NCBI RefSeq assembly: GCF_900102105.1
Contig: NZ_FNBB01000009.1
Coordinates: forward strand, 124,001-188,000
Direction: 5' to 3'
From: Agrobacterium pusense
GTDB lineage: Bacteria; Pseudomonadota; Alphaproteobacteria; Rhizobiales; Rhizobiaceae
Length of the DNA stretch: 64,000 nt
Part shown: piece by piece, positions 9,476 through 47,758 of the stretch
How the letters are laid out: every line of letters starts with the position of its first letter
How positions within the stretch are numbered: the first letter of the stretch is position 1
Notes under the pieces: model-generated
What the model saw: only the letters and a program-made list of their open reading frames with translations
Database searches by the model: none
Told to the model about the DNA's origin: nothing
Made by a program: the position numbers and the translations under genes

Positions 9476-10402
9476 TCACCCCTGATGCAGAATATGCGCC
9501 GCCTTGACCGCGGCAGAGGCGCGGTTCTCCACGCCGAGCTTCACATAGATCTGTTCGAGATGCTTGTTCACCGTCCGGGCCGACAGGCCGAGAATATCGC
9601 CGATATCGCGGTTGGATTTGCCCTTGGCGATCCACAAAAGCACTTCCGATTCCCGCGTGGTCAGCGCGAAATGCTCTTTCAGAAGGTGGTCATCCGACTT
9701 TTCGTTGGCGGCGGTCAGGCGAAACAGATGCTCATCCGGGCCCATCGCGCCGAGGAAGGAGAGCTGCAAGGCCGGGCGTCCGGCCTGGGTGATCGTCAGC
9801 GGTGCATCGCGACCGGTTTCGGAGGCCGCCCTTTCGCCGAGCCAGCGGCCGATATGGCTGACGACGATTTCCATGCCGTCATCCCGGCCGGTCGCAGCAT
9901 TGACGAGCCGCGTTGCCTGCGGCGTAGACCAGTGGATAGCTCCATTGGCGCGCACGGCAAGCAGGTGTCGGCCGGCGGCGTCAAGCGCCACGCGCGCGCT
10001 TTGCGCGGAACGGGCATTGGAAAGATGCACGCGGATGCGGGCGCGCAGCTCATCGATATTGATCGGCTTGGTCAGATAATCGACGCCGCCGGAGTCCAGC
10101 GCCCGCACCACATGTTCGGTCTCGGTCAGTCCCGTCATGAAAATGACGGGCACCTGCGCTACCGCCGCATTGGCCTTCAGGCGGCGGCAGGTTTCGAAAC
10201 CGTCCATGGTGGGCATGACGGCGTCGAGCAGGATGATATCGGGCGTAATGCGTTCGGCAATGTTGAGCGCGGCCTGTCCCGATGTGGCGATGAGGGCGGA
10301 AAAGCCGGACTGTTCCAGCGCATCGGTGAGGAAACCGAGCGCTTCCGGGCTGTCATCCACCAGCAATACAATGTCTCTCGGGGCCGCCGCCTGAGCGCTC
10401 AT
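9476..10402 (-). CDS. LuxR-type response regulator partner of the NCS1-kinase fusion
   Basis: This 308-residue protein has a receiver domain at residues 10-130, with acidic pocket VDD at 15-17, phospho-acceptor D60 in IILLDAVMP, and lysine in YLTKP near residue 112. A middle region (about 140-230) resembles the sensor-like segment seen before some LuxR domains. The LuxR/GerE helix-turn-helix at 243-303 contains LTTRESEVLLWIAKGKSNRD and RTVNKHLEQIYVKLGV. ATG 10402 overlaps the stop of the fused kinase gene (ATGA), so the two are translationally coupled. It is expected to bind DNA after phosphotransfer; targets are unknown. Confidence 0.9.
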   Translation of the reverse strand: MSAQAAAPRDIVLLVDDSPEALGFLTDALEQSGFSALIATSGQAALNIAERITPDIILLDAVMPTMDGFETCRRLKANAAVAQVPVIFMTGLTETEHVVRALDSGGVDYLTKPINIDELRARIRVHLSNARSAQSARVALDAAGRHLLAVRANGAIHWSTPQATRLVNAATGRDDGMEIVVSHIGRWLGERAASETGRDAPLTITQAGRPALQLSFLGAMGPDEHLFRLTAANEKSDDHLLKEHFALTTRESEVLLWIAKGKSNRDIGDILGLSARTVNKHLEQIYVKLGVENRASAAVKAAHILHQG

Positions 10403-13400
10403 GCCTTGAGGTCTCCCCTGTCACTGTCTTCGAACCGCTTGAGAAAATGCGCGTAGCCAGCCAGATCGAAAGCCTGCACATAGGCGCCGAGCTCCTGCGT
10501 GAAGGGCAGGTTTTCCGTGTTGCGAGCAAGATCGGCGAGTTTCGCTTCGATGCCGCGTATGTAGCCTATTTCGCCCAGCCGCTGCAAATCCTGGATGTGG
10601 ATGGCTCCCGGATGGACGATCTCGGCAGGCGGCTGCGGCTCCGGCGCGGGCGGCAGGTCGGTATCGTAAATCCATTTCAGCCCGAGATGCACGGCGAGCC
10701 TGTCGCAGAGGTGGCGGATATCGACCGGCTTGGCGATGGCGTCGTTGTGATTGTCATCGCCGGCACCCGCGACAGTGCCGTCGCCGATATTGGCTGAGAG
10801 CATGATGAGCGGGGCCGTCTGACCCGCCTCGCGCAGCTTCGTCACCAGCTGCCAGCCGGTCATGCCGGGCATGGAAATATCGATGAGGAAAAGATCGGGC
10901 TTCACGCCTTCGATGAGTGTGAGACATTCGGGACCGGATTGCGCCGTCAGCACGACGAAATCGAGCGGCGAAAGCACCTGCCGCATCAGCTCGCGATGAT
11001 CCTCGTTGTCATCGACCACGACGATGGTGCGGCGTGGACCGGAATAGGAGCGGATGGTCTTTTCCGGCGCCGGCGCCGTGTTTGGCCGGTGGACGGCGGA
11101 TAGCATGAGGCGCACGCGGAAGGTGGAGCCTTTGTCCTTTTCGCTGGAAACAGAAATCTCGCCGCCGAGCGTATTGGTCAGAAGCCTTGTAATCGTCAGA
11201 CCGAGGCCGAGGCCTGGCATCGGCCGCACGCTTTCGGCCTCGCCACGCTGGAAGGGTTCGTAGATGCGGGCGAGGTCTTTTTCGGCAATGCCGCGGCCGG
11301 TATCGGACACGGTGAAGCTCGCCACCTGGCTGCGATAACCGACATCGAAGGTGACGGCGCCATGATCGGTGAACTTGATGGCGTTTGAAAGCAGGTTGAC
11401 GAGGATCTGGCGCAGCCGCTTTTCATCGGTTCGCACATATTGCGGCAGAGCGGGCGAGCGGTCGTGGCGGAATTCCAGCCCCTTGGCCTGCGCCTGCGGG
11501 CGGAACATATCGACGATCTGATCGAGGAAATCCTGAATGTTGATCTCGTTGGAATAGACCTGCAGGCGGCCCGCCTCGATCTTGGAAATATCCAGCAGTC
11601 CGTCGATCAGGCCCGAGAGGTGGTCTGCCGAGCGGCGGATGACCTTGATAGCCGATTGCCGGGGAGGGGGAATGGTCTCGTCGCGCTCGAGGATCTGGGC
11701 ATAGCCGAGAACGGCATTCAGCGGCGTGCGCAGCTCGTGGCTGAGGCCGACGACATAACGGCTCTTGGCGCGGTTGGCGGCCTCAGCCGTTTCCTTGGCA
11801 TCCTGGAGGGCCGCATCTGTCTTCTTGTGGGCGGCGATTTCCTTCAAGAGCAGCGTGTTCTGGCGGGAGGATTCCTCTTCCGCCACCACCCGGCTGTCAT
11901 GGGCAAGGACGAGGAACCAGCAGACGATGCCGGCAATGACGGCGAAGACGAAAAACACGATGAGGATGGTGCGGTTCACCACATCTGCCGTTTCCGGCGA
12001 GGCCGTGCCGACCTGATGCGCGATCATGGCGAGAATGCCGCCGATGGTGGTGACGGCAATCGCCGCCGCCATGCCGTAGCGCCCGAGGCGGGTGGCGAGT
12101 TTTGCTACCAGCTGTCTCGGCAGGAAGGTCTTGGCGACGGTGGCGACCTGATAGTTCAGCTTCGCCTTCGGCTTGCACATGTCGTGACAGCGGCTGTCCA
12201 GCGAGCAGCAGAGCGAACAGATCGGCGCGGCATAGGCCGGGCACCAGGCCATGTCCTCAGGCTCGAAGGGGTGTTCGCAGATCGAGCAGGTGATGCTGCT
12301 TTCTTCGCGCCATTGCTGGCGCGGCTTGCGGGCAAGGTAGAATTTGCCCTTGGTGCCCCAGGCAATCAGCGGCGAGGCGATGAAAGCGACGATGAGTGTG
12401 AGATAGGGCGCGAGCGAGGCGGCGAGCGGGCCGAAGGTGCCGAAATGCGCCATCAGCGCAATGGTGGCGGAAAGCGCCATGGAGCCGACGCCGACGGGAT
12501 TGATATCGTAGAGATGGGCGCGCTTGAACTCGATGCCCGGCGGGGCAAGGCCGAGCGGCTTGTTGATGAAGAGATCGGCCGAGATGGTGCAGAGCCACGC
12601 CATGGCGATGATGGAGAAGATGCCGAGCGTTTCCTCAAGCAGCCGGTAGATGCCGAGTTCCATCAAGAGCAGCGCAATCGCCACATTGAACACCAGCCAG
12701 ACGACGCGGCCGGGGTGGCTGTGGGTGAGGCGGGAGAAAAAATTCGACCAAGCGAGCGACCCCGCATAGGCGTTCATGACGTTGATCTTCAGCTGCGAGA
12801 CGACCACGAAGGCGACCATCAGCAGCATTGCCGCCGTCTGGTTTGGGATCATATAACCGAAGGCGGTGAGATACATTTGGGCAGGATCGGCGGCGCGGTC
12901 GACCGAAACGCCGGAGCTGAAGGTCAGCACGACAAGGAACGAGCCGGCCAAGAGCTTCGGTACGCCGACGACAACCCAGCCCGCACCGGCCAGAAAGACG
13001 GCGAGGCGGTGGCGCAGGCGGCTTTGGCCTTCGGCGGGGAGGAAGCGGAGAAAGTCCACCTGTTCGCCGATCTGCGACATCAAAGCCAGAATGACGGCCG
13101 AGGCTGCGCCGAATTCCACGAGATTGAAATCCGCGACGGTGCCGGGCGGGCCGGACGCATGGTGAATGCCGGCAAAGGCGCGCCAGAGATCGTATTTCTC
13201 CCAGTCCATCAAGGCGATGAAGATGAAGGGCAGGATGTTGAGGACGATCCAGAAGGGCTGGGTGACGATCTGGAAACGGCTGATAAGCCGCACGCCATGG
13301 GTGACGAGCGGAATGACCATGACGGCGGAGATGATGTAGCCGATCCAGAGCGGAATGCCGAGCGCCAGTTCCAGCGCGCCGGACATGATCGACGCCTCGA

Positions 13401-13794
13401 TGGCAAAGAGCATGAAGGTGAAGGCGGCGTAAATCAGCGAGGTAATGGTGGAGCCGATGTAACCGAAGCTTGCGCCGCGTGTCAGCAGATCGATATCGAC
13501 GCCGTGGCGGATGGCATAACGGCTGATCGGAAGGCCGACGGCGAGCATGGCGACGGCGGCGACAAGGATGGCGTAAAAAGCGTTGGTGGTGCCGTAGGAA
13601 AGCGTGATTGCCCCGCCGATGGCTTCCAGCGCCAGAAAGGAAATCGCGCCGATGGCGGTGTGGGAAATGCGGTTGGAGGAAAATTGCCGGGCGCTCTTGG
13701 CGGTAAAACGCAACGCATAATCTTCCAGCGTCTGGTTGGCGACCCAGCGGTTATATTCGCGCCTGACGGGGATGATGCGTTGCCGTGCCGCCAT
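10399..13794 (-). CDS. NCS1-family permease fused to hybrid histidine kinase
   Basis: This large membrane protein has 1131 residues from ATG 13794. Residues 20-485 form an NCS1 (purine/pyrimidine/allantoin/hydantoin) permease with about 12 helices. A cysteine-rich segment (about 503-540, eight Cys including CSIC and CSLCC) resembles a zinc-binding knuckle. Two more membrane helices follow near 575-635. The kinase part has a HisKA domain with SHELRTPLNAVLGY (His about 686), an ATPase domain with NLLSNAIKF and DTGRGIAEKDL, and a receiver domain with IDISMPG (Asp about 972). The architecture resembles transporter-kinase sensors such as CbrA, but with an NCS1 module. An upstream start at 13851 is possible but would overlap the SDR gene. 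The ligand is not shown; a nucleobase or hydantoin is a guess. Confidence 0.9.
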   Translation of the reverse strand: MAARQRIIPVRREYNRWVANQTLEDYALRFTAKSARQFSSNRISHTAIGAISFLALEAIGGAITLSYGTTNAFYAILVAAVAMLAVGLPISRYAIRHGVDIDLLTRGASFGYIGSTITSLIYAAFTFMLFAIEASIMSGALELALGIPLWIGYIISAVMVIPLVTHGVRLISRFQIVTQPFWIVLNILPFIFIALMDWEKYDLWRAFAGIHHASGPPGTVADFNLVEFGAASAVILALMSQIGEQVDFLRFLPAEGQSRLRHRLAVFLAGAGWVVVGVPKLLAGSFLVVLTFSSGVSVDRAADPAQMYLTAFGYMIPNQTAAMLLMVAFVVVSQLKINVMNAYAGSLAWSNFFSRLTHSHPGRVVWLVFNVAIALLLMELGIYRLLEETLGIFSIIAMAWLCTISADLFINKPLGLAPPGIEFKRAHLYDINPVGVGSMALSATIALMAHFGTFGPLAASLAPYLTLIVAFIASPLIAWGTKGKFYLARKPRQQWREESSITCSICEHPFEPEDMAWCPAYAAPICSLCCSLDSRCHDMCKPKAKLNYQVATVAKTFLPRQLVAKLATRLGRYGMAAAIAVTTIGGILAMIAHQVGTASPETADVVNRTILIVFFVFAVIAGIVCWFLVLAHDSRVVAEEESSRQNTLLLKEIAAHKKTDAALQDAKETAEAANRAKSRYVVGLSHELRTPLNAVLGYAQILERDETIPPPRQSAIKVIRRSADHLSGLIDGLLDISKIEAGRLQVYSNEINIQDFLDQIVDMFRPQAQAKGLEFRHDRSPALPQYVRTDEKRLRQILVNLLSNAIKFTDHGAVTFDVGYRSQVASFTVSDTGRGIAEKDLARIYEPFQRGEAESVRPMPGLGLGLTITRLLTNTLGGEISVSSEKDKGSTFRVRLMLSAVHRPNTAPAPEKTIRSYSGPRRTIVVVDDNEDHRELMRQVLSPLDFVVLTAQSGPECLTLIEGVKPDLFLIDISMPGMTGWQLVTKLREAGQTAPLIMLSANIGDGTVAGAGDDNHNDAIAKPVDIRHLCDRLAVHLGLKWIYDTDLPPAPEPQPPAEIVHPGAIHIQDLQRLGEIGYIRGIEAKLADLARNTENLPFTQELGAYVQAFDLAGYAHFLKRFEDSDRGDLKA

Positions 13795-13825
13795 GCCTAC
13801 TGAGCGCCTTTCCGCCCGCGGCCTT

Positions 13826-14596
13826 TCACAGGCGCACCGACATTCCGCCATCCACCGTCAGCACATGGCCGTTGACGAAGGAGGCCGCGTCGCTGGCCAG
13901 AAACAGGGCCGCACCGGCAATCTCGTCCGGTCTGCCCCAGCGCTCCAGCGGTACACGAAGCTTGGCAAAGGCCACCATCTCAGGATTTTCGGCAAGGGCG
14001 GCGTTGGTTTCGGTGGCGAACATGCCCGGCGCAATGGCGTTGCTGGTGATGCCGCGCGCGCCATATTCCACGGCGATGGCCCGCATCAGGCCCGTCAGCC
14101 CCTGTTTGGCGACGGGATAGATCGCATCGCCCGGCCGCACGATGTGGCCAAGAATGGAGGTAATGGTGATGATGCGGCCATGGGCCTTTGCCGCCATGGC
14201 TTCCGCCGCATCGCGCGACAGGGAAATGGAGGAGGTGAGGTCTGTGCGGATCAATTCCAGCACGTCCTCGTCGCTGAACTCGGACAGCGGGCGGCGGTCG
14301 CGCGCGCCGACATTGTTGACGAGAATATCGAGGTGGCCGAGTTCGCTCATGATGCGGTGGACCAGCGCCGCCCCGGCTCTGGTATCGGCAATATCGAAGG
14401 CGGCATAATCGGCCTTTCCGCCCGCTTCGCGCAGCGTGTCAACCGCCTGTTGCAACGTCTCGGCATTGCGGCCGGTCAGCCAGACGTGGGCGCCAGCTTC
14501 GGCAAAGGCTTTGGCGATTTCAAAACCGAGGCCGCGGCCGCTGCCGGTGATGATGGCGGAGCGGTTCTTGAGGGAAAATTTGTCGAGAATGCCCAT
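13826..14596 (-). CDS. SDR family oxidoreductase (gluconate 5-dehydrogenase-like)
   Basis: This 256-residue NAD(P)-dependent short-chain dehydrogenase has the cofactor motif TGSGRGLG at residues 17-24 and NNVG at 94-97. The catalytic residues are S147, Y160 and K164 (YPVAK). The C-terminus GHVLTVDGGMSV is typical of the classical subfamily. The length is normal. It is upstream of the permease-kinase gene on the same strand with about 31 bases between, so the three may form one transcript. Closest recognisable relatives are gluconate 5-dehydrogenase and 3-oxoacyl-ACP reductase; the substrate cannot be decided. Confidence 0.85.
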   Translation of the reverse strand: MGILDKFSLKNRSAIITGSGRGLGFEIAKAFAEAGAHVWLTGRNAETLQQAVDTLREAGGKADYAAFDIADTRAGAALVHRIMSELGHLDILVNNVGARDRRPLSEFSDEDVLELIRTDLTSSISLSRDAAEAMAAKAHGRIITITSILGHIVRPGDAIYPVAKQGLTGLMRAIAVEYGARGITSNAIAPGMFATETNAALAENPEMVAFAKLRVPLERWGRPDEIAGAALFLASDAASFVNGHVLTVDGGMSVRL

Positions 14597-14819: not shown

Positions 14820-15854
14820 TCAGGCAGCAGCCGACTTTGCGAGCGGCACTTCCGCGATCGTCTTCAGAACGACGGAAGCGATCTGGTAAGGGCAGCCCTG
14901 CGAGTTCGGACGACGGTCTTCAAGGTAACCCTTGTAACCGTTGTTGACGAAAGAGTGCGGAACGCGGATCGACGCGCCACGGTCTGCCACGCCGTAGGAG
15001 AACTTGTTCCACGGAGCGGTTTCGTGCTTGCCGGTCAGGCGAAGGTGGTTGTCCGGACCGTAAACGTCGATGTGCTCTTTCCAGTTCTTGGCAAAAGCGG
15101 CCATGAGGGCTTCGAAATAGTCCTTGCCGCCAACTTCACGCATGTACTTGGTGGAGAAGTTGCAGTGCATGCCCGAACCGTTCCAGTCGGTGTCGCCGAG
15201 CGGCTTGCAATGGAATTCGACGTCGATGCCGTACTGTTCGCAAAGACGCAGCAGCAGGTAGCGAGCGATCCAGATCTGGTCGGCGGCGCGCTTGGAGCCC
15301 TTGCCGAAAATCTGGAATTCCCACTGGCCCTTGGCCACTTCGGCGTTGATGCCTTCGTGGTTGATGCCGGCTTCGAGGCAGAGATCAAGGTGCTCTTCAA
15401 CGATTTCGCGGGCAACCGAACCGACGTTCTTGAAGCCGACGCCCGTGTAGTAAGGACCCTGCGGAGCCGGGTAGCCCTGTTCCGGGAAGCCGAGCGGGCG
15501 GCCGTCCTGGTAGAAGAAATATTCCTGCTCGAAGCCGAACCATGCATCTTCGTCGTCGAGGATGGTTGCGCGGCTGTTCGACGGATGCGGGGTGACGCCA
15601 TCGGGCATCATGACTTCGCACATGACGAGCGCGCCGTTGGAGCGGGCCGGATCCGGGTAGATCGCGACGGGCTTCAGCACGCAATCGGAGGAGTGGCCTT
15701 CGGCCTGCTGCGTGGAGGAGCCATCAAAGCCCCAAAGCGGCAGCTGCTCGAGTGTCGGAAATTCATCGAATTCCTTGATCTGGGTCTTGCCGCGCAGGTT
15801 GGGGACCGGCTTGTATCCGTCCAGCCAGATGTACTCGAGTTTGAACTTAGTCAT
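14820..15854 (-). CDS. glnII: Glutamine synthetase II (eukaryotic-type)
   Basis: This 344-residue cytoplasmic enzyme condenses ammonia and glutamate using ATP. Its length matches the eukaryotic-type GSII (about 330-370) and not GSI (about 470). It shows the GSII start LEYIWLDGYKP, the substrate motif WGFDGSSTQQA near residue 42, the ATP-site segment WEFQIF near residue 178, and the glutamate-site segment DWNGSGMHCNFS near residue 223. A sigma-54-type promoter lies about 100 bases upstream and a divergent GstI-like gene beyond that, the arrangement described for Rhizobium leguminosarum. Expression is therefore expected under nitrogen limitation through NtrC. Confidence 0.96.
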   Translation of the reverse strand: MTKFKLEYIWLDGYKPVPNLRGKTQIKEFDEFPTLEQLPLWGFDGSSTQQAEGHSSDCVLKPVAIYPDPARSNGALVMCEVMMPDGVTPHPSNSRATILDDEDAWFGFEQEYFFYQDGRPLGFPEQGYPAPQGPYYTGVGFKNVGSVAREIVEEHLDLCLEAGINHEGINAEVAKGQWEFQIFGKGSKRAADQIWIARYLLLRLCEQYGIDVEFHCKPLGDTDWNGSGMHCNFSTKYMREVGGKDYFEALMAAFAKNWKEHIDVYGPDNHLRLTGKHETAPWNKFSYGVADRGASIRVPHSFVNNGYKGYLEDRRPNSQGCPYQIASVVLKTIAEVPLAKSAAA

Positions 15855-16757: not shown

Positions 16758-16773
16758 TACGTCAATTGACGTA
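16758..16773. promoter_or_regulatory. Perfect 16-bp palindrome upstream of urtA (putative operator)
   Basis: TACGTCAATTGACGTA is a perfect inverted repeat about 98 bases before the urtA start. The TTGACG within it could serve as a -35 box, so a bound protein could block or help RNA polymerase. No matching regulator gene is adjacent. I do not know a described operator with this sequence, so the role is inferred from symmetry and position only. Confidence 0.5.
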
Positions 16774-16870
16774 TACGGTTTCGCGCTTACGAGATCGATA
16801 GTCCCTCCAGCAGCGGCCGAAGATGCCGCTGAGCCTCCACGAGAGGCCAACAAGGAGAGGGGTCCTTCCG

Positions 16871-18160
16871 ATGATGTTCCGCAAGACGCTCAGTGCCGCG
16901 CTGCTTGGCGCAATCCTGTCCACCACCGCCTTCCACGGCGCCTTTGCTGCCGATGACACGATTAAGGTCGGTGTGCTGCATTCTCTTTCCGGTACGATGG
17001 CCATTTCAGAAACCACGCTGAAAGACGCCATGCTGATGCTCATCGATGAGCAGAACAAGAAGGGCGGCGTGCTCGGCAAGAAGCTCGAAGCCGTCGTGGT
17101 CGATCCGGCCTCCGACTGGCCGCTTTTCGCCGAAAAGGCCCGCCAGCTGATTTCGCAGGACAAGGTCGCCGCCGTTTTCGGCTGCTGGACGTCCTCCTCG
17201 CGTAAATCCGTTCTGCCTGTTTTCGAAGAGCTGAACTCGATCCTGTTCTACCCGGTTCAGTATGAGGGTGAAGAATCCTCGCGCAACATCTTCTACACGG
17301 GTGCCGCCCCCAACCAGCAGGCCATTCCGGCCGTCGATTACCTCGCCAATACCGAAGGCGTCGAGCGCTGGGTTCTGGCCGGCACGGACTATGTCTATCC
17401 GCAGACCACCAACAAGATCCTGAAGGCCTACCTGATGTCGAAGGGCGTCAAGGAAGAGGACATCATGATCAACTACACGCCGTTCGGTCATTCCGACTGG
17501 CAGACGATCGTGTCCGATATCAAGAAATTCGGCTCGGCCGGCAAGAAGACCGCCGTTGTTTCCACGATCAATGGTGACGCCAACGTGCCCTTCTACAAGG
17601 AACTGGCCAACCAGGGCATCAAGGCCGAAGACATTCCGGTCGTCGCCTTCTCCGTGGGCGAAGAAGAGCTTGCCGGTCTCGATACCGCGCCGCTGGTCGG
17701 CCACCTTGCCGCCTGGAACTACTTCCAGTCCGTCGATGCGCCAGTCAATGCCGAGTTCATCAAGACCTGGCATGCCTTCACCAAGAACGACAAGCGCGTG
17801 ACCAACGACCCGATGGAAGCCGCCTATATCGGTTTCAACGCCTGGGTTAAGGCCGTGGAATCCGCCGGCACGACCGATACGGACAAGGTTCTCGACTCGA
17901 TCATCGGCGTTTCCGTGCCGAACCTCTCTGGCGGTTACTCCACCGTCATGCCGAACCACCACATCACCAAGCCGGTGCTGATCGGTGAAATCCAGGCTGA
18001 CGGCCAGTTCGAAATCGTGCAGCAGACGCCGCAGGTGGTGGGTGACGAATGGTCGGATTACCTGCCGGACTCGAAGGATCTGATCTCGGATTGGAGAAAG
18101 CCGATGTCCTGCGGCAACTTCAACGTGGCCACGGGCAAGTGCGGCGGCAAGGGTAGCTGA
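16871..18160 (+). CDS. urtA: Urea ABC transporter substrate-binding protein UrtA
   Basis: This 429-residue periplasmic protein begins with a Sec signal peptide (about residues 1-26, ending AFA before ADDTIKVG). The motifs VGVLHSLSGTMAISET near residue 31 and FGCWTSSSRKSVLPVFEE near residue 105 are hallmarks of UrtA, and NSILFYPVQYEGEESSRNIF continues the family pattern. A late segment with Cys (MSCGNF and KCGG) is also usual. ATG 16871, or the adjacent ATG 16874, is preceded by AAGGAGAGGGG. It is the first gene of urtABCDE and delivers urea to the UrtBC channel for use by the downstream urease. Confidence 0.96.
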   Translation: MMFRKTLSAALLGAILSTTAFHGAFAADDTIKVGVLHSLSGTMAISETTLKDAMLMLIDEQNKKGGVLGKKLEAVVVDPASDWPLFAEKARQLISQDKVAAVFGCWTSSSRKSVLPVFEELNSILFYPVQYEGEESSRNIFYTGAAPNQQAIPAVDYLANTEGVERWVLAGTDYVYPQTTNKILKAYLMSKGVKEEDIMINYTPFGHSDWQTIVSDIKKFGSAGKKTAVVSTINGDANVPFYKELANQGIKAEDIPVVAFSVGEEELAGLDTAPLVGHLAAWNYFQSVDAPVNAEFIKTWHAFTKNDKRVTNDPMEAAYIGFNAWVKAVESAGTTDTDKVLDSIIGVSVPNLSGGYSTVMPNHHITKPVLIGEIQADGQFEIVQQTPQVVGDEWSDYLPDSKDLISDWRKPMSCGNFNVATGKCGGKGS

Positions 18161-18435: not shown

Positions 18436-20049
18436 ATGACGATCCGATCTTTTCTCGGAGCCATTCTCCTCTGGCTCACCATGGGGATCGCCGCCCAGTC
18501 CCTCGCGCAGAGCGACCCAAAGGCGCTGATCGACCAGCTCGGCACGGCTGATTTCAAGCAGGCCGAAGTGCTGATCGGGCAGATTGCCGCCACTGGCGAT
18601 GCGCGCGTGGTTCCGGCGCTGGAGGCATTTGCGGCGGGTGATCTCTACGTGCGCAAGTCAGACAATCTCGTCTTCATGACCAAACCTGCCGGTTCCGATT
18701 TCACGCTGATCGACCCGCTGACAGGTGAAAGCGCCGGCTCGGCGCCGAAGGCGACCGTTACTAAGATCAGGGTCAACAATAATCTTCGCCGCGTCATCCG
18801 CGCCGCGATGGGCGGGCTGACGTTGCTCAGCCCGGAAAAATCCGTGCGGCTTGCAGCGGCTGACGCCGTCCTGAAAGCGCCAAGCGCCGAAAATCTCGAA
18901 TTGCTGGAAGCGGCCATCGCCAAGGAAACCGATAATGAGGTGCGGACCCGGATGGAGGAGGCGCGGGCTGTCTCGCTGCTCTCCTCCGACCGCCCCCTTG
19001 AGGTGAAGAAAGAAGCGATCGCCACCATCAAGGCGCTTGGCGGGCGCGATGCGATCAGCATTCTGATGGCGGCGACGCCATCGGTCGATCCGAGCCTGAA
19101 ACCGGATGTGGACGAGGCGATTTCCAGCATCGAGAGTTCCCTTGCCTTCTGGGATTACGCGCAGAATGTCTGGTACGGCCTGTCGCTCGGCTCTGTGTTG
19201 CTGCTCGCCGCCATCGGCCTTGCCATCACCTTCGGCGTCATGGGCATTATCAACATGGCGCATGGTGAAATGGTGATGATCGGCGCCTATTCCACCTTCA
19301 TGGTGCAGGAGTTGATCCGCAGCCATTTCCCCGGCCTGTTCGACTGGTCACTGGCGATTGCCCTGCCGGCCGCCTTTCTGGTCACGGCCTGCGTCGGCCT
19401 CGTCATGGAACGCGGTGTCATCCGCTATCTCTATGGACGACCTCTGGAAACGCTGCTCGCCACTTGGGGCATCTCGCTGATCCTGCAACAGGGCGTGCGC
19501 TCCATCTTCGGCCCCACCAATCGGGAGGTCGGCAGCCCGAGCTGGATGTCCGGCTCCTTCAGCGTCGGTTATCTCAATTTCACCTGGAACCGGGTGTGGA
19601 TCGTCTGTTTCTCGCTCTCCGTCTTCTTCGCGCTTCTGGTTCTCCTGAAGCGCTCGGCCTTCGGCCTGCAGATGCGCGCCGTCACCCAGAACCGCCGCAT
19701 GGCTTCCTCCATGGGCATTCGCACGCCTTGGGTGGATGCCTTTACCTTCGCGCTCGGTTCCGGTGTCGCCGGGCTTGCGGGCGTCGCGCTGTCGCAGATC
19801 GACAATGTCTCTCCCAATCTCGGCCAGAGCTACATTATCGACAGTTTCATGGTGGTGGTGTTCGGCGGGGTCGGCAATCTCTGGGGAACGCTGGTCGGCG
19901 CCCTGTCGCTCGGTGTGCTCAACAAGTTCCTTGAGCCGACGGTGGGCGCCGTGCTCGGCAAGATCCTCGTGCTCGTTCTCATCATTCTGTTCATCCAGAA
20001 GCGGCCGCGCGGTCTCTTCGCACTCAAGGGAAGGGCGATCGAAGCATGA
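18436..20049 (+). CDS. urtB: Urea ABC transporter permease UrtB
   Basis: This 537-residue protein has a signal-like N-terminus (residues 1-25) and a soluble region with helical, HEAT-like repeats (about 26-235). A LivH-type permease domain follows (about 245-530), with AITFGVMGIINMAHGEMVMI and FGGVGNLWGTLVGALSLG. The long periplasmic N-terminal extension is the usual feature of UrtB in proteobacteria. The start ATG 18436 has AAGGAACC upstream. The last four bases overlap urtC as ATGA. It forms the urea channel with UrtC. Confidence 0.94.
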   Translation: MTIRSFLGAILLWLTMGIAAQSLAQSDPKALIDQLGTADFKQAEVLIGQIAATGDARVVPALEAFAAGDLYVRKSDNLVFMTKPAGSDFTLIDPLTGESAGSAPKATVTKIRVNNNLRRVIRAAMGGLTLLSPEKSVRLAAADAVLKAPSAENLELLEAAIAKETDNEVRTRMEEARAVSLLSSDRPLEVKKEAIATIKALGGRDAISILMAATPSVDPSLKPDVDEAISSIESSLAFWDYAQNVWYGLSLGSVLLLAAIGLAITFGVMGIINMAHGEMVMIGAYSTFMVQELIRSHFPGLFDWSLAIALPAAFLVTACVGLVMERGVIRYLYGRPLETLLATWGISLILQQGVRSIFGPTNREVGSPSWMSGSFSVGYLNFTWNRVWIVCFSLSVFFALLVLLKRSAFGLQMRAVTQNRRMASSMGIRTPWVDAFTFALGSGVAGLAGVALSQIDNVSPNLGQSYIIDSFMVVVFGGVGNLWGTLVGALSLGVLNKFLEPTVGAVLGKILVLVLIILFIQKRPRGLFALKGRAIEA

Positions 20050-21209
20050 TTACCGGCTTCCTCCTGCGCGCGCTCGATCGCCGCATTTCCATCGCCATCG
20101 GCATCATCCTTGCCATCGCCGTGCTGGTTCCCGCCTCCAACCTGCTGCTGCCAGCCGACAGCGCGTTCCGCATCCCAACCTATATCATGTCGATGCTCGG
20201 CAAATATCTGGCCTATGCGCTGCTGGCGCTCGCGCTTGATCTGGTCTGGGGTTATTGCGGCATTCTCTCGCTTGGCCACGCCGCCTTCTTTGCGCTCGGC
20301 GGTTATGCCATGGGCATGTATCTGATGCGGCAGATCGGCACGCGCGGGGTCTATGGGCATCCGGTGCTGCCTGATTTCATGGTGTTCCTCAACTGGAAGG
20401 AACTGCCGTGGTTCTGGCACGGCTTCGACATGTTCTGGTTTGCGGCGCTGATGGTGCTCGTCGTGCCGGGGCTGCTCGCCTTCGTGTTCGGCTGGTTCGC
20501 CTTCCGCTCGCGCGTCAATGGCGTTTATCTCTCGATCATTACCCAGGCGATGACCTATGCGCTGCTGCTTGCCTTCTTCCGCAACGACATGGGTTTCGGC
20601 GGCAATAATGGCCTCACCGATTTCAAGGATATTCTTGGGTATTCCGTGCAGGCTGATGGCACCCGCGCCGTGCTGTTTGCCATGACGGCGGTGATGCTGG
20701 CGCTCTCGCTTTTGATTGCATCGGGCATCGTCAATTCCAAGTTCGGCAAGGTGCTGGTGGGTGTGCGGGATGCTGAAAGCCGGGTGCGGTTCCTCGGTTT
20801 TAGGGTGGAAAACATCAAGCTCTTTACCTTCGTCGTTTCGGCGATGATGGCGGGCATTGCCGGTGCCTTGTTCGTGCCGCAGGTGGGCATCATCAATCCC
20901 GGCGAATTTTCGCCCGCCAACTCCATCGAAGTGGTGGTGTGGACGGCGGTCGGCGGGCGCGGCACGCTGATCGGGCCGATCATCGGGGCGGTGCTGGTCA
21001 ATGGTGGCAAGAGCTATTTCACCGGTGCGTTCCCGGAGTTCTGGCTGTTCGCGCTCGGCGGTCTCTTCATTGCTGTCACGCTGTTCTTCCCCAAGGGCAT
21101 CGTTGGTACCGTGCAGCATTATCTGGCCGGACGGCGGGAAAAGCGGGTTGCAAGCGCGGCGCGTGAGGCTGGCAACGACAGCGCGGTTGCGCAACAGGCG
21201 GCGGAGTAA
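20046..21209 (+). CDS. urtC: Urea ABC transporter permease UrtC
   Basis: This 387-residue LivM-type inner-membrane permease contains LALDLVWGYCGILSLGHAAF near residue 62 and WTAVGGRGTLIGPIIGAVLV near residue 300. The segment GNNGLTDFKDILG is typical of UrtC. The start overlaps the urtB stop by four bases, and urtD begins five bases after its stop. It should pair with UrtB for urea import. Length and order match urtABCDE operons of other rhizobia. Confidence 0.94.
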   Translation: MITGFLLRALDRRISIAIGIILAIAVLVPASNLLLPADSAFRIPTYIMSMLGKYLAYALLALALDLVWGYCGILSLGHAAFFALGGYAMGMYLMRQIGTRGVYGHPVLPDFMVFLNWKELPWFWHGFDMFWFAALMVLVVPGLLAFVFGWFAFRSRVNGVYLSIITQAMTYALLLAFFRNDMGFGGNNGLTDFKDILGYSVQADGTRAVLFAMTAVMLALSLLIASGIVNSKFGKVLVGVRDAESRVRFLGFRVENIKLFTFVVSAMMAGIAGALFVPQVGIINPGEFSPANSIEVVVWTAVGGRGTLIGPIIGAVLVNGGKSYFTGAFPEFWLFALGGLFIAVTLFFPKGIVGTVQHYLAGRREKRVASAAREAGNDSAVAQQAAE

Positions 21210-21213
21210 GCCC

Positions 21214-21975
21214 ATGAACACGGTTTCCGAAAACAGAACGAAAAGCCTGCTTTATCTCGATGGCGTTTCCGTTTCCTTTGATGGGTTCAGGGCGCTGAAT
21301 TCCCTCTCCTTCGTGGTGGAGCCGGGCGAACTTCGCGCCATCATCGGCCCGAATGGTGCTGGCAAAACGACGATGATGGATATCATCACCGGCAAGACGC
21401 GGCCGGATACCGGCACGGTACTCTTTGAAGACAGCATCGACCTTACCAAAAAGGACGAGGCCGACATCGCCCAGCTTGGTATCGGCCGAAAATTCCAGAA
21501 ACCGACGGTGTTTGAAAGCCATACTGTGTGGGACAATCTGGAACTGGCGCTGAACCGCAAGCGCGGCGTGTTCGCAACCCTGTTCTACCGGCTGACGGAG
21601 GAAGACAAGGCGCGCATCGAGGAAATCCTCGCCACCGTGCGGCTTGGCCACCGCCGGGGTGACCTTGCCGCCAATCTCTCGCATGGGCAGAAACAGTGGC
21701 TGGAGATTGGCATGCTGCTGGCGCAGGAGCCGAAGCTTCTCTTGGTGGATGAGCCGGTGGCGGGCATGACGGATGCGGAGACCGCTGAAACCGCGGTGCT
21801 CCTGAAGGAAATCGCCAAGACGCGTTCGGTGGTGGTGGTTGAGCACGATATGGGCTTCATCCGCGAGCTGGGGGTGAAGGTGACGTGCCTTGCGGAAGGT
21901 TCGGTGCTGGCTGAGGGGTCGATCGACTTCGTGTCGAGCGATCCTAAGGTGATCGAGAATTATCTGGGGCGGTGA
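21214..21975 (+). CDS. urtD: Urea ABC transporter ATP-binding protein UrtD
   Basis: This 253-residue ATPase has Walker A GPNGAGKTT near residue 44, the UrtD-specific IGRKFQKPTVFESHTVWDNL near residue 90, a divergent signature LSHGQKQWLEIGMLL near residue 155, and Walker B LLLVDEPVAGMT near residue 175. ATG 21214, with GGAG about 8 bases upstream, starts the recognisable sequence; the frame is open further upstream inside urtC but is not family-like. A long inverted repeat separates it from urtE. Confidence 0.94.
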   Translation: MNTVSENRTKSLLYLDGVSVSFDGFRALNSLSFVVEPGELRAIIGPNGAGKTTMMDIITGKTRPDTGTVLFEDSIDLTKKDEADIAQLGIGRKFQKPTVFESHTVWDNLELALNRKRGVFATLFYRLTEEDKARIEEILATVRLGHRRGDLAANLSHGQKQWLEIGMLLAQEPKLLLVDEPVAGMTDAETAETAVLLKEIAKTRSVVVVEHDMGFIRELGVKVTCLAEGSVLAEGSIDFVSSDPKVIENYLGR

Positions 21976-22192: not shown

Positions 22193-22888
22193 ATGCTGAC
22201 AGTCGACAACATCAACCTCCACTACGGCGCAGCGCAGGCGCTCCGCGGCGTGTCGCTGAAGGCCGAGATGGGGAAGATCACCTGCGTTCTCGGCCGCAAC
22301 GGCGTCGGCAAAAGCTCGCTTTTGCGGGCCGTGACCGGCCAGCAGGCCACCAGCGCCGGCACGATCCGTTTCGGTGATGCGGCGCTTGATGGGCTGGCGC
22401 CTTACCAGCGGGCGAAGCGCGGTGTCGGTTACGTGCCGCAGGGGCGCGAGATCTTTCCGTTGCTCAGCGTGCAGGAAAATCTGGAGAGCGGTTATGCGCC
22501 GCTGCCGCGCAAGGAGCGGTTCATCCCGGATGATATTTTCAGCCTGTTTCCGGTGCTGCAGACCATGCTGTCGCGCCGCGGCGGCGATCTCTCCGGCGGT
22601 CAGCAGCAGCAGCTTGCCATCGGCCGGGCGCTGGTGACGCGGCCGAAAATCCTCGTTCTCGACGAGCCGACCGAGGGCATCCAGCCGTCGATCATCAAGG
22701 ATATCGGCCGGGCGATCAAATATCTGCGCGATTCCACCGGCATGGCGATTTTGCTGGTTGAGCAATATCTGGATTTCTGCCGCGAACTTGCCGACTACGT
22801 CTACATCATGGACCGCGGCGAGATCGTGCATGAGGGGCTGGCAGAAACGCTGGATACGCCGGAAGCGCGGCGGCATTTGACGGTGTAA
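22193..22888 (+). CDS. urtE: Urea ABC transporter ATP-binding protein UrtE
   Basis: This 231-residue LivF-type ATPase has Walker A GRNGVGKSS near residue 36, signature LSGGQQQQLAIGRALV near residue 132, and Walker B ILVLDEPTEGIQPS near residue 154. The phrase DEPTEGIQPSII is characteristic of UrtE. ATG 22193 follows a GGAG ribosome binding site. It completes urtABCDE and forms the ATPase pair with UrtD. The 217-base gap from urtD, filled by an inverted repeat, may require read-through of a strong hairpin. Confidence 0.94.
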   Translation: MLTVDNINLHYGAAQALRGVSLKAEMGKITCVLGRNGVGKSSLLRAVTGQQATSAGTIRFGDAALDGLAPYQRAKRGVGYVPQGREIFPLLSVQENLESGYAPLPRKERFIPDDIFSLFPVLQTMLSRRGGDLSGGQQQQLAIGRALVTRPKILVLDEPTEGIQPSIIKDIGRAIKYLRDSTGMAILLVEQYLDFCRELADYVYIMDRGEIVHEGLAETLDTPEARRHLTV

Positions 22889-27577: not shown

Positions 27578-29287
27578 ATGCCATACAAGATTTCCCGCGC
27601 CGCCTATGCCGGCATGTTCGGCCCGACCGTTGGCGACAAGGTGCGTCTTGCCGATACCGAACTCTTCATCGAGATCGAGAAGGACCACACGACCTATGGC
27701 GAGGAAGTGAAATTCGGCGGTGGCAAGGTCATTCGCGACGGCATGGGCCAGAGCCAGGCGACGCGGGCAGAGGGCGCTGTCGATACCGTCATCACCAATG
27801 CCGTCATCGTTGACCATAGCGGCATCTACAAGGCAGATGTGGGCCTGAAGAACGGCCGCATTCACGCCATCGGCAAGGCGGGCAACCCGGATACGCAGCC
27901 GGGTGTCACGATCATCGTCGGTCCCTCGACGGAAGCGATTGCCGGCGAAGGCAAGATCCTGACGGCCGGCGGCATGGATGCGCATATCCACTACATCTGC
28001 CCGCAGCAGATCGAGGAAGCACTGATGAGTGGTGTGACCTGCATGCTTGGCGGCGGCTCCGGCCCGGCGCACGGCACGCTTGCCACCACCTGCACCGGCG
28101 CATGGCATATCGAGCGGATGATCGAAAGCTTCGATGCTTTCCCGATGAACCTCGCGCTTGCGGGCAAGGGCAATGCCTCTCTGCCGGCTCCGCTGGAAGA
28201 AATGATCCTCGCCGGTGCCTCCTCGCTGAAGCTGCATGAGGACTGGGGCACGACGCCCGCCGCCATCGACAATTGCCTGACGGTGGCCGACGAATATGAC
28301 GTGCAGGTGATGATCCATACCGACACGCTGAATGAAAGCGGTTTCGTGGAAGACACGGTCGCCGCTATCCGGGGCCGCACCATCCACGCTTTCCACACCG
28401 AAGGGGCGGGCGGTGGCCACGCGCCTGACATCATCAAGGTCTGCGGCAATCCCAACGTCATTCCGTCCTCGACCAACCCGACGCGGCCTTACACCGTCAA
28501 TACGCTGGCGGAACATCTCGACATGCTGATGGTTTGCCACCACCTGTCGCCGTCCATCCCCGAAGATATCGCCTTTGCCGAAAGCCGCATCCGCAAGGAA
28601 ACCATTGCGGCGGAAGATATTCTCCACGATATCGGCGCGTTTTCGATCATTTCCTCCGATAGTCAGGCCATGGGCCGTGTCGGCGAGGTGGCGATCCGCA
28701 CCTGGCAGACCGCTGACAAGATGAAGCGCCAGCGTGGCCGCCTGAAGGAAGAGACCGGCGAAAACGACAATTTCCGTGTTCGTCGTTACATCGCCAAATA
28801 TACCATCAACCCGGCCATCGCCCAGGGTGTCAGCCACGAGATCGGCTCCATTGAAGTCGGCAAGCGTGCCGATCTGGTTCTTTGGAACCCGGCGTTTTTC
28901 GGCGTGAAGCCGGAAATGGTGCTGCTCGGCGGCTCGATCGCTGCCGCGCCGATGGGCGATCCGAATGCCTCCATCCCCACGCCGCAGCCGATGCATTATC
29001 GGCCGATGTTTGCCGCCTATGGCAAGCTGCGCACCAATTCGTCGGTCACTTTCGTGTCGCAGGCGTCGCTGGATGCGGGGCTTGCGGGGCGCCTCGGGGT
29101 CGCCAAGAAGCTGTTGCCGGTGAAAAATGTGCGCGGCGGCATTTCCAAGGCCTCGATGATCCACAATTCGCTGACGCCGCATATCGAGGTTGATCCGGAG
29201 ACCTATGAAGTACGTGCGGATGGCGAGCTTCTGACCTGTGAACCGGCGACCGTGCTGCCGATGGCGCAGCGTTATTTCCTGTTCTGA
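27578..29287 (+). CDS. ureC: Urease subunit alpha (catalytic)
   Basis: This 569-residue catalytic subunit hydrolyses urea to ammonia and carbamate at a dinuclear nickel centre. Nickel ligands H136 and H138 lie in [14 protein letters not shown]. The lysine that becomes carbamylated is in [10 protein letters not shown] at about residue 218. The mobile flap with catalytic Cys/His is [20 protein letters not shown] near residue 315. The length matches the family. It starts 4 bases after the GT29-like gene. Together with ureA and ureB it makes a functional-looking urease with all key residues present. Confidence 0.98.
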
Positions 29288-44155: not shown

Positions 44156-45613
44156 TCACACGCCCGATGCCGGAATGCCTGTGCGTTCCACCTTGCGTGG
44201 CGATACGAGCTCCTTCCAGGTGGAAAGCGCCTGGCTGACGGCCGGATAGGGGTCGCGGGCGATGAACTGGCCGTGGCCGGCCTGTGTCTCGATGGTGCCT
44301 TCCTCGACGCTCACCAGCCCGCGCGAGAGCGTGTAGCGCGGCAGGCCTTTTACCCTGTGTCCTTCGAACACGTTGTAATCGATGGCCGATTGTTGGCTCG
44401 CGGCACTGATGGTCTTTGTAAGCGCCGGGTCCCAGACAACGATATCGGCGTCGCTGCCGACAAGGATCGCGCCTTTTCTCGGATAGATGTTGAGGATCTT
44501 GGCGATGTTGGTGGAAGTGACGGCGACGAACTCGTTCATCGTCAGCCGGCCGGTCGCCACGCCGTGGGTCCAGAGCAGCGGCATGCGGTCTTCGAGCCCG
44601 CCGGTGCCGTTCGGTATCTTGCGGAAATCACCGAGGCCGAAACGTTTCTGATCTGTGGTGAAGGCACAATGGTCGGTCGCCACACATTGCAGCGAGCCGG
44701 AGGCGAGACCCGCCCAGAGGCTGTCCTGATGCTGACGGTTGCGGAAGGGCGGTGACATCACCCGGCGGGCGGCATGGTCCCAGTCGGGATGGGCATATTC
44801 GCCTTCGTCGAGGATCAGGTGCTGGATCAGCGGCTCGCCATAAACCCGCATGCCGTTTTGCCGGGCGCGGCGGATGGCTTCATGGGCCTGTTCGCAGGAG
44901 GTGTGGACGACGTAAAGCGGCGCACCGGCCATATCGGCGATGATGATGGCGCGGTTGGTGGCCTCGCCTTCCACGGAGGGCGGGCGGGAATAGGCGTGCG
45001 CCTCCGGCCCGACATTGCCTTCCGCCATCAGTTTTTCCTGCATCTGCGCGACGATATCGCCGTTTTCCGCATGCACGAAGGGAATGGCGCCGAGCTCCGC
45101 GCAGCGCGAGAAGGAGGCGAACATCTCGTCGTCATTCACCATCAGCGCGCCTTTATAGGCCATGAAGTGCTTGAAGGAGTTGATGCCCTTTTCCTGAACC
45201 ACCGTCTTCATCTCATCGAAGACCTGTTCGCCCCACCAGGTGACGGCCATGTGGAAGGAGTAATCGCAATTGGCGCGCGTCGCCTTGTTGTCCCAGCGTT
45301 GCAGGGCATCGAGAAGCGACTGCCCCGGCTCCGGCAGGCAGAAATCCACCACCATGGTCGTGCCGCCGGAAAGCGCCGCCCGCGTGCCGCTCTCGAAATC
45401 ATCGGCGGAATAGGTGCCCATGAAGGGCATTTCCAGATGCACATGCGGATCGATGCCGCCGGGCATCACGTAACATCCGGTGGCATCCAGCACGGTGCCG
45501 CCGGTGAGATCAGGGCCGATCTCGGTGATTTTGCCATCCTCGATCTTCACATCTGCCTTGTAGGTGAGGTCGGCGGTGACGATGGTGCCGTTCTTGATGA
45601 TGGTAGCGGTCAT
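44156..45613 (-). CDS. hydA: Dihydropyrimidinase (D-hydantoinase)
   Basis: This 485-residue zinc amidohydrolase opens dihydrouracil or dihydrothymine to the N-carbamoyl-beta-amino acid. Metal ligands are in GGIDPHVHLEMPFMG near residue 56. The carbamylated lysine is in FKHFMAYKGALMV near residue 150, further His in VHAENGD near residue 183 and YVVHTSCEQAHEAI near residue 235, and Asp in CVATDHCAF near residue 314. ATG 45613 overlaps the upstream gene's stop by four bases. This is the second step of reductive pyrimidine degradation; no first-step dehydrogenase lies in the window. Confidence 0.94.
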   Translation of the reverse strand: MTATIIKNGTIVTADLTYKADVKIEDGKITEIGPDLTGGTVLDATGCYVMPGGIDPHVHLEMPFMGTYSADDFESGTRAALSGGTTMVVDFCLPEPGQSLLDALQRWDNKATRANCDYSFHMAVTWWGEQVFDEMKTVVQEKGINSFKHFMAYKGALMVNDDEMFASFSRCAELGAIPFVHAENGDIVAQMQEKLMAEGNVGPEAHAYSRPPSVEGEATNRAIIIADMAGAPLYVVHTSCEQAHEAIRRARQNGMRVYGEPLIQHLILDEGEYAHPDWDHAARRVMSPPFRNRQHQDSLWAGLASGSLQCVATDHCAFTTDQKRFGLGDFRKIPNGTGGLEDRMPLLWTHGVATGRLTMNEFVAVTSTNIAKILNIYPRKGAILVGSDADIVVWDPALTKTISAASQQSAIDYNVFEGHRVKGLPRYTLSRGLVSVEEGTIETQAGHGQFIARDPYPAVSQALSTWKELVSPRKVERTGIPASGV

Positions 45614-46857
45614 TCTACGATCTCCGCAGTCTCCAGCACGGCATGCAGCAACACGTCGCAGCCGGCCTTTGCCCATTCGGGTGAAATTTCTTCGGCCTCA
45701 TTGTGGGAAAGCCCGTCCACGCAGGGGCAGAAGATCATGGTGGAGGGGGCAACTCTGGCCGTCCAGCAGGCATCGTGGCCGGCGCCGGAGATGATGTCCA
45801 TGTGGCTGTAGCCCAGTCGTTCGGCGGCGGAGCGTACGCGCCCGACGAGGATAGGATCGAAGGTGACGGGGTCGAAATGGCCGATGGCTTCGATCGAGCA
45901 GCCGACGCCGAGTTCTTCGGCGATGGCGGGCACCTCGCGTTCGAAGATGGCGCGCATGCTGTCGAGCTTTGCCTGCGAGGGGGTTCTGAGGTCGATGGTG
46001 AAGACCACCTTGCCGGGCAGCACATTGCGGGAATTGGGCGTGAAGATCATCTGGCCGACGCCGGCGACGGCTCCCGGCTGGTGAGCCATCGCCACTTCCT
46101 GCACCTTTTCGAGGATTCGCGCCGCGGCAAGGCCGGCATTAACGCGCATCGCCATCGGGGTGGAGCCGGTATGGGCTTCCCTGCCGGTCAGCGTCACTTC
46201 CAGCCACCACAGGCCCTGGCAATGGGTGACGACGCCGATCTGCTTGTTTTCGGCCTCCAGGATCGGGCCCTGTTCGATGTGATATTCGAAATAGGCATGC
46301 ATCTTGCGCGCGCCGACCTCTTCCTCACCCAGCCAGCCGATGCGTTTCAGCTCCTCGCCATAGGTTTTGCCGTCGGTATCCGTGCGGCTATAGGCGTAAT
46401 CGAGATCGTGAATGCCGGCGAAGACCCCCGACGCCAGCATGGCAGGCGCAAAGCGGGCGCCTTCCTCGTTCGACCAGTTGGTGACGACAATGGGGTGTTT
46501 CGTGCGGATATTGAGGTCGTTCAGGCTGCGCACGACTTCCAGACCAGCCAGCACGCCAAGCACGCCGTCATATTTGCCGCCGGTCGGCTGGGTATCGAGA
46601 TGGCTGCCGATATAAACGGGGAGCGCGTCCGGGTCCTCGCCGGCGCGGGTGGCGAACATGGTGCCCATGCGGTCTACGCCCATCGTCAGGCCTGCCGCTT
46701 CGCACCAGCGCTGAAAAAGGCTGCGGCCCTCCGCATCCTCATCCGTCAACGTGCGGCGATTATTGCCGCCGGCAATGCCGGGGCCAATCTTCGCCATATC
46801 CATCAGACTATCCCACAGACGGTCGCCATTAACCGTCAAGTTCTTACCCGCCGTCAT
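45610..46857 (-). CDS. Zn-dependent N-carbamoyl amidohydrolase (beta-ureidopropionase type)
   Basis: This 415-residue M20/AmaB-family enzyme removes the carbamoyl group from N-carbamoyl-amino acids, giving ammonia and CO2. Metal-binding motifs are GSHLDTQPTGGKYDGVLGVL near residue 82, NWSNEEGARFAPAM near residue 127, and FEYHIEQGPILE near residue 190, with a late histidine in SGAGHDACW near residue 360. With the dihydropyrimidinase it would complete the last two steps of uracil breakdown to beta-alanine. Allantoate amidohydrolase is a related possibility. It is the first gene of the operon, facing RutR across the operator. Confidence 0.88.
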   Translation of the reverse strand: MTAGKNLTVNGDRLWDSLMDMAKIGPGIAGGNNRRTLTDEDAEGRSLFQRWCEAAGLTMGVDRMGTMFATRAGEDPDALPVYIGSHLDTQPTGGKYDGVLGVLAGLEVVRSLNDLNIRTKHPIVVTNWSNEEGARFAPAMLASGVFAGIHDLDYAYSRTDTDGKTYGEELKRIGWLGEEEVGARKMHAYFEYHIEQGPILEAENKQIGVVTHCQGLWWLEVTLTGREAHTGSTPMAMRVNAGLAAARILEKVQEVAMAHQPGAVAGVGQMIFTPNSRNVLPGKVVFTIDLRTPSQAKLDSMRAIFEREVPAIAEELGVGCSIEAIGHFDPVTFDPILVGRVRSAAERLGYSHMDIISGAGHDACWTARVAPSTMIFCPCVDGLSHNEAEEISPEWAKAGCDVLLHAVLETAEIVE

Positions 46858-46966
46858 GAAGTGTCGTCCTCACCCGTTTTGTTTTTATCAAAGCAAAGCT
46901 TGTGCCGTTCCCTTTTTTGCCGGTTAAGATAACAGCCATTGCCTTGTGGCGGCGATGATGGATAAA

Positions 46967-46982
46967 TTGACCGGCTGGTAAA
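46967..46982. promoter_or_regulatory. Putative RutR operator
   Basis: TTGACCGGCTGGTAAA matches the RutR consensus TTGACCA-NN-TGGTCAA at 12 of 14 defined positions. It is in the 259-base region between the amidohydrolase gene (minus) and the RutR-like gene (plus), so one dimer site could control both. In E. coli RutR releases DNA when uracil or thymine binds. Confidence 0.75.
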
Positions 46983-47116
46983 CATTGCAAATTCGCGATG
47001 GCGTCAGCAAGGGAATTTGTGACGAAACGCAGTAATTTTGCCTAAGCTATGAACGTCGATTATTTTTTAAGCATACTGTAGCGGCAATTGCATTGAAAAG
47101 AAACAGAGAGCTGAGA

Positions 47117-47758
47117 ATGGCCATACCGCGCGCAGCGAAAACACAGAAGCGGACCCGCATTCAGGAGGAAAAGCAGGAAGCGATTCTTGAAGCCGCGCTC
47201 AGTGTTTTTTCCACGAATGGTTTCCGCGGCTCCACCATCGACCAGATTGCGGAAGCGGCCGGCATGTCCAAGCCGAATGTGCTTTATTACTTCCGCACCA
47301 AGGAGGCGATGCATCGTGCGCTGATCGAGCGGGTGCTGGACACGTGGCTCGACCCGCTGCGCGCTTTCGATGCCGAGGGTAATCCTGAAAGCGAGATCCG
47401 CTCCTATATTCGTCGCAAGCTGGAAATGTCGCGCGATTTCCCGCGCGAAAGCCGGCTGTTTGCGAACGAAATACTGCAGGGCGCGCCGCATATCGAGGAT
47501 GAACTGAAGGGCCCGTTGAAACAGCTGGTGGATGAGAAGGCCGAGGTGATCCGCGCGTGGGTGAAGGCCGGGCGGATGGCCAAATGTGACCCTTACCACC
47601 TTATTTTCTCGATCTGGTCGACCACGCAGCACTATGCCGATTTCGATGTACAGGTGCGGGCGGTTCTGGGCGACAAGAATGGCGGCGAGGGACGTTTCGA
47701 AGACGCGGCCCGCCATCTGGAACAGCTTTTCATGGGCGGGTTGCGGATAAACGGCTGA
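47117..47758 (+). CDS. rutR: TetR-family regulator RutR-like
   Basis: This 213-residue repressor has the TetR DNA-binding domain at residues 20-66 (ALSVFSTNGFRGSTIDQIAE, then NVLYYFRTKEAMHRALI). The ligand domain has the RutR features SRLFANEILQGAPHI near residue 118, DPYHLIFSIWSTTQHYADFD near residue 162, and VLGDKN. It is divergent from the pyrimidine operon, with a near-consensus RutR operator between them. ATG 47117 with AGAGAG upstream is chosen over a TTG eight codons earlier. Uracil or thymine is the likely inducer. Confidence 0.9.
   Translation: MAIPRAAKTQKRTRIQEEKQEAILEAALSVFSTNGFRGSTIDQIAEAAGMSKPNVLYYFRTKEAMHRALIERVLDTWLDPLRAFDAEGNPESEIRSYIRRKLEMSRDFPRESRLFANEILQGAPHIEDELKGPLKQLVDEKAEVIRAWVKAGRMAKCDPYHLIFSIWSTTQHYADFDVQVRAVLGDKNGGEGRFEDAARHLEQLFMGGLRING

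Follow-up and report, generated by a model that had tools for sequence, protein, structure and literature searches.

A hybrid histidine kinase with a transporter-like membrane core, encoded in a 64,000-nucleotide stretch of Agrobacterium pusense DNA (contig NZ_FNBB01000009.1, positions 124,001 to 188,000; the window), probably tells the cell when nitrogen in the form of urea or simple amides is present. On sequence grounds, a probability of roughly 0.7 is given to the reading that this protein is a receptor kinase for urea or small amides, built on an NCS1 scaffold and signalling through a LuxR-type partner and a palindromic site to the urt genes. The kinase and its partner comprise the following features:

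10399..13794 (-): NCS1-type hybrid histidine kinase, 1131 aa
12355..13728 (-): membrane core of NCS1/LeuT fold, approximately residues 23-480
12175..12288 (-): module at C503-C540 with eight Cys, invariant in a 33-row alignment
11914..12096 (-): helical, transmembrane-like segment leading from the Cys module to the kinase, about residues 567-627
11569..11766 (-): HisKA, phospho-acceptor H686
11101..11430 (-): HATPase_c
10696..11025 (-): receiver domain, D972
9476..10402 (-): REC-LuxR (GerE) response regulator, by Pfam matches to REC and the LuxR-type HTH

The kinase reading frame is open from 10399 to 13851 (-) in the ORF scan of the window, and a protein of 1131 aa is supported by the ATG at 13794 together with the lengths of untruncated relatives, mostly 1122-1134 aa among the matches listed. 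Pfam recognises HisKA, HATPase_c and REC, and the catalytic His, Asn and Asp of a hybrid histidine kinase are in place: in the 33-row alignment H686 is a histidine in 33/33, two HATPase_c Asn residues are identical in 33/33, and D972 occurs in all 31 members that carry REC (L060 and L061 lack the domain). Mean column identity, calculated over 28 sequences after exclusion of two short forms and the three nearest relatives, amounts to 0.71 in the core, 0.72 in the Cys module, 0.70 in HisKA, 0.66 in HATPase, 0.52 in REC and 0.39 at the C-terminus. A search of the window's own 5.28-Mb genome with the membrane half gives one match.

The preliminary description of this DNA had seen an NCS1-type permease fused to a hybrid kinase, and profile comparison together with the Pfam kinase domains bears this fusion out. 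Pfam PF02133 matched 0/33 membrane cores at E<=10, the window protein included; profile comparison and fold alignment were positive. Against an alignment led by the PF02133-positive L063, the core gave an hhalign probability of 100 (E 3.4e-43, 440 columns), and it is thus homologous to purine-cytosine permeases. Fold alignments place it in the LeuT-type fold, closest to CodB and Mhp1, at a fold-aligned identity of 14-15%. Uracil, hydantoin and allantoin, which are NCS1 substrates, share an N-C(=O)-N unit with urea, so that an NCS1 scaffold would be chemically sensible for a urea receptor. A stand-alone permease-like protein from Streptomyces (L200:8863-10581) is 40% identical to the sensor core; no Pfam domain is listed for its relatives.

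Between the membrane core and the kinase half lies a module of eight Cys (C503, C506, C518, C526, C529, C530, C536 and C540) that are invariant in the 33-row alignment. The Prok-RING profile matches it weakly in 4/33 members (best E 0.91), and its structural model is treble-clef-like with weak matches throughout, which hints at most at a zinc-finger-like fold. The helical segment that follows is probably embedded in the membrane.

The distribution of the family was followed in a phylum sample of 299 Pseudomonadota genomes, 50 of which gave matches at E<=1e-3 (34/181 by genus). According to a manual count, 42 of the 50 matching genomes have strong matches (E<1e-100), the remainder being weak or partial. 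Outside the window's own genome there are 45 strong places, from which 32 loci in 28 genomes were taken; the 13 left out mostly belong to further members of genera already covered. A second set of named-genome loci, rich in Rhizobiaceae, consists of the best 80 of 578 confirmed stretches from a scan of GTDB genomes. The family comprises at least 8000 homologous proteins, with members named in alpha- and gammaproteobacteria; the rhizobia Sinorhizobium fredii and S. medicae (L087, L105) also have the locus. In both sets the next same-strand gene after the kinase is usually the response regulator (26/32 phylum-sample and 78/80 named-genome loci with our own gene caller, which may miss some). In the window the two genes overlap by ATGA and the regulator, with its REC and GerE/LuxR HTH domains, is of the NarL/FixJ type; the linked LuxR-type regulator of the preliminary description is thereby confirmed.

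On its other side the kinase faces genes for urea transport and urease, which are arranged in the window as follows:

14820..15854 (-): glnII-type glutamine synthetase, separating urtA from the kinase
16758..16773 (no strand): palindrome TACGTCAATTGACGTA, predicted operator, roughly 100 bp ahead of the probable urtA start codon (ATG 16871)
16823..18160 (+): urtA, urea ABC transporter binding protein (TIGR03407), likely start 16871, predicted target
18436..20049 (+): urtB (TIGR03409)
20046..21209 (+): urtC, by position and similarity to annotated UrtC
21001..21975 (+): urtD-type ATPase ORF, assigned from position only
22193..22888 (+): urtE-type ATPase, by position and similarity to annotated UrtE
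27578..29287 (+): ureC
about 24.2-32.8 kb: further urease ORFs around ureC, named by eye

This neighbourhood is conserved. In a tally that covered urea and amide genes, other neighbours not being named systematically, urt, ure or fmdA lies near the kinase in 32/32 phylum-sample and 76/80 named-genome loci. Among the misses, L113, L124 and L144 have less than 0.8 kb of sequence upstream of the kinase, and L119 is a real one, with no urt, ure or fmd gene within its 21 kb. As far as our gene caller detects it, urtA is the immediate divergent neighbour in 21/32 and 44/80 loci, and a UrtA-like gene is linked to the kinase in 25/32 and 73/80. A glnII-type gene separates urtA and kinase also in L072, L076 and L128.

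The conserved neighbours encode urea ABC transport, urease, formamidase and aliphatic amidase, and the ABC genes are of two types. In the first, UrtA is at least 60% identical to that of the window; in the second, a UrtA paralogue of about 38% identity is followed by the formamidase FmdA and often by FmdB and aliphatic amidase. Annotated records contain both kinds of neighbour: urt and ure in Methylosinus trichosporium OB3b, urt in Rhizobium T136, urt and formamidase on a Klebsiella plasmid, and formamidase with AmiS/UreI in Paracoccus. The window genome has no match to the FmdA family, and urea is therefore the expected substrate here.

Several further observations concern individual branches. 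Formamidase and amidase are accompanied by FmdB, a small Zn-ribbon protein, and at some loci also by a Clp-type AAA ATPase (L034:17132-17473 and L041:980-2032). Relatives of the sensor half occur on 530 plasmid records, 342 of them from Klebsiella; the Klebsiella pneumoniae plasmid pC2_001 (L199, 2900-13255), typed conjugative, carries urtABCDE and formamidase, with the site TACGTCATTTAACGTA at 8870, before urtA. In a short branch (L060, L061 and L202, the last from Paracoccus), kinases of 873-894 aa all lie beside FmdA formamidase and are followed by a separate REC-containing protein, which in L061 combines REC, HisKA and HATPase; the relay seems to be split differently in this branch.

Kinases linked to urea genes and those linked to amide genes were compared on a 44-row tree, labelled from the neighbouring genes. 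The label changes 4 times, at least 3 of these changes being forced by well-supported branches, compared with a mean of 13.8 for shuffled labels; moreover, three genomes (G148, G190, G204) contain one urea-linked and one amide-linked kinase each. From both observations, the type of sensor appears to go with the pathway encoded next to it. A change from amide to urea is the preferred direction, since rows linked to amide genes turn up in all parts of the tree; the tree has a midpoint root and so displays no direction itself. One mildly convincing alignment column, G402, was the only one to shift in step with urea linkage. We lean slightly towards a broader view, namely that this large unnamed family, derived from NCS1, consists of receptor kinases that sense the smallest amides; urea sensors would have arisen in it from amide sensors several times, each with its own targets, and the eight-Cys module would replace STAC as coupler between the LeuT-fold core and the kinase.

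The palindrome, about 105 bp ahead of the likely urtA start, is perfectly symmetrical and the only such site in the window. If 5-base arms are counted, the genome contains two copies, the second lying near unrelated ORFs. Among 113 loci, the window included, 98 had a usable urtA upstream (-300 to +150) and 15 did not. Dyad enumeration returned TACGT-N6-ACGTA in 52/66 urt-type upstreams, with variants among the 32 fmd-type ones; the best dyad in one shuffle set reached a count of 2. Counted over upstreams that are related by descent and thus not independent, a relaxed motif is present in 77/98 kinase-linked urtA upstreams compared with 16/9800 shuffles, and the strict consensus in 69/98 compared with 0/490 at up to 1 mismatch and in 79/98 compared with 11/490 at up to 2. 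As in shuffles, 3 or more mismatches separate the best site from the consensus in 19/98 urtA upstreams, including L050, L052, L057, L120 and L129. In seven urea-linked loci from three other clades the region upstream of the kinase contained no TACG-type dyad, although G136 has one before urtA; the palindrome is not universal across urea-linked clades.

Given this shared descent, stronger arguments come from genomes without the kinase and from distant amiE sites. When 80 of roughly 250 kinase-less sample genomes were searched, 35 had a urtA-type gene at E<=1e-30; 30 loci were taken, 29 of them with sufficient upstream sequence, and the relaxed motif was found in 0/29 urtA-type upstreams, 19 of these 29 at 64% identity or more. 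The kinase-less L159 has one motif copy inside the urtA coding region. Within the window's genus the kinase core is present in 39/39 genomes, 38 of which contain exactly one strict palindrome, each 1890-3155 bp from the coding region of the core. Strict sites were also sought in 42 genomes of the phylum sample, of which 41 match the kinase strongly and G170 weakly; these are largely the genomes whose loci had supplied the upstreams. The scan yielded 15 sites in 12 genomes and none in the other 30; a reversed control pattern gave 9 sites. Twelve of the 15 precede urtA-type genes (9), fmdA (1) or amiE (2), one of the amiE sites being on a contig other than that of the kinase, and 3 adjoin unrelated genes. 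Further relaxed sites precede fmdA in L041 and L044. These patterns suggest that the palindrome is the operator of the LuxR-type regulator, whose predicted action at urtA is activation.

In the mechanism proposed, the core would bind urea in urea-linked members, that of the window among them, or amides of the formamide/acetamide type in amide-linked ones. Its occupancy or transport cycling might be passed through the Cys module and the helical segment to HisKA, and phosphate would then reach the REC-LuxR partner directly or via the internal receiver. The regulator would bind TACGTCN4GACGTA about 100 bp before urtA and raise expression of the urea ABC transporter, probably also that of the urease genes behind urt. 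Linkage alone could also fit other inputs, such as ammonium status, an intermediate or UrtA itself.

The preliminary description had proposed that the protein reports a nucleobase, allantoin or hydantoin, which is at odds with neighbours for urea transport, urease, formamidase and amidase. Such a sensor would govern the use of its ligand and control urea genes because ureide breakdown yields urea. The entry titles of the NCS1 relatives CodB (cytosine transporter) and Mhp1 (hydantoin-binding transporter) speak for it, as do the names of the nearest stand-alone relatives found, purine-cytosine or allantoin permease, although these are source annotations. The window also holds, at 44156-47758, a dihydropyrimidinase/hydantoinase, an enzyme of the carbamoylase/allantoate-amidohydrolase type and a RutR-like regulator; they form a pyrimidine-type cluster of their own about 30 kb from the kinase, and the loci taken for comparison extend to a distance of about 10 kb. 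The neighbours tallied at these loci are, however, urea and amide genes, the palindrome precedes urtA, fmdA and amiE, and formamide and acetamide are, to our knowledge, not usual products of ureide breakdown. We consider this reading unlikely.

Slightly less probable still is a kinase that reads ligand-loaded UrtA or FmdD from the periplasm, with the NCS1 core as docking scaffold. The common linkage of UrtA/FmdD-type genes would suit it, but in L048, L060, L061 and L062 the kinase has urease or formamidase genes next to it and no urtA within the stretch covered, and invariant residues are spread along the whole membrane core. Improbable above all is a metal or redox input, for instance the nickel or zinc of the target enzymes, that is read at the eight-Cys module while the core is vestigial. 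The invariant Cys and the weak Prok-RING and treble-clef resemblance would favour it, yet the core is as conserved as the module, unexpectedly for a vestige, and we know of no metal which formamidase, aliphatic amidase and urease all need and which would account for the regulon.

If the broader view of the family is true, the protein would be a dedicated urea receptor kinase in the membrane. Urea sensing matters for soil nitrogen use. The family offers a candidate operator and, in the window's genus, an apparent one-promoter regulon, and the pairs of urea and amide paralogues in one genome make ligand switching in a LeuT-fold receptor directly testable.

Members of the family have probably been recorded before. 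Gene lists for Dechloromonas aromatica (table 4 of PMC2907700; kinase of 1131 aa) and Ectopseudomonas guguanensis (PMC13296017) include a histidine kinase together with a receiver/LuxR gene, either next to urtA or accompanied by a second urtABCDE operon in the neighbourhood of fmdA, and size and neighbours suggest that both kinases belong here; the available parts of these lists do not mention an NCS1 domain, a role in urea sensing or an operator. In Pseudomonas veronii, an amiE-fmdA-fmdB-urtABCDE cluster has been described in a passage that suggests formamide uptake (PMC13209695). Searches of open-access literature turned up no functional study of the NCS1-kinase family. The NCS1 transporters CodB and Mhp1 differ in having no kinase and in their cytosine and hydantoin ligands.

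Among kinases, L066 (L066:2357-4213) resembles the ErcS/YiaZ (PA1992/PP_2683) type of kinase described in PMC12997753, and its neighbouring gene suggests that it is an ErcS. It matches query residues 510-650, including the helical linker region, has HisKA, HATPase and REC, and adjoins an Fe-alcohol dehydrogenase and a regulator 41% identical to that of the window; unlike the window kinase, it has no NCS1 core, no eight-Cys module and alcohol rather than urea genes. Judged from L066, sensors of more than one kind may have become joined to the kinase half.

The transporter-fold kinases CrbS and RpuS act with regulators, CrbR and RpuR, whose action on genes for the use or uptake of acetate or pyruvate goes through a conserved repeat in the promoter, according to passages of PMC5715377 and PMC9100948. 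As in the window pair, a hybrid kinase (CrbS) is joined by a regulator of the LuxR family (CrbR); the sensors differ in being SLC5/STAC proteins, the DNA repeats are different, and these passages describe neither an NCS1 core nor an eight-Cys module. The closest parallel in layout is CbrA of Pseudomonas, an SLC5-STAC histidine kinase proposed as a transceptor in the available text of PMC13022988, and the CbrA-like transporter-sensor arrangement of the preliminary description holds, a transporter-fold membrane domain being fused to a histidine kinase in both. CbrA has an SLC5 core for histidine, a STAC linker and the sigma54-type partner CbrB (as excerpted from PMC12997753), whereas the window kinase has an NCS1 core, a Cys module, REC and a LuxR partner. 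In the cited passages, transporter-kinase fusions are SLC5/STAC proteins; the window kinase extends this idea to another transporter family and a different coupling module.
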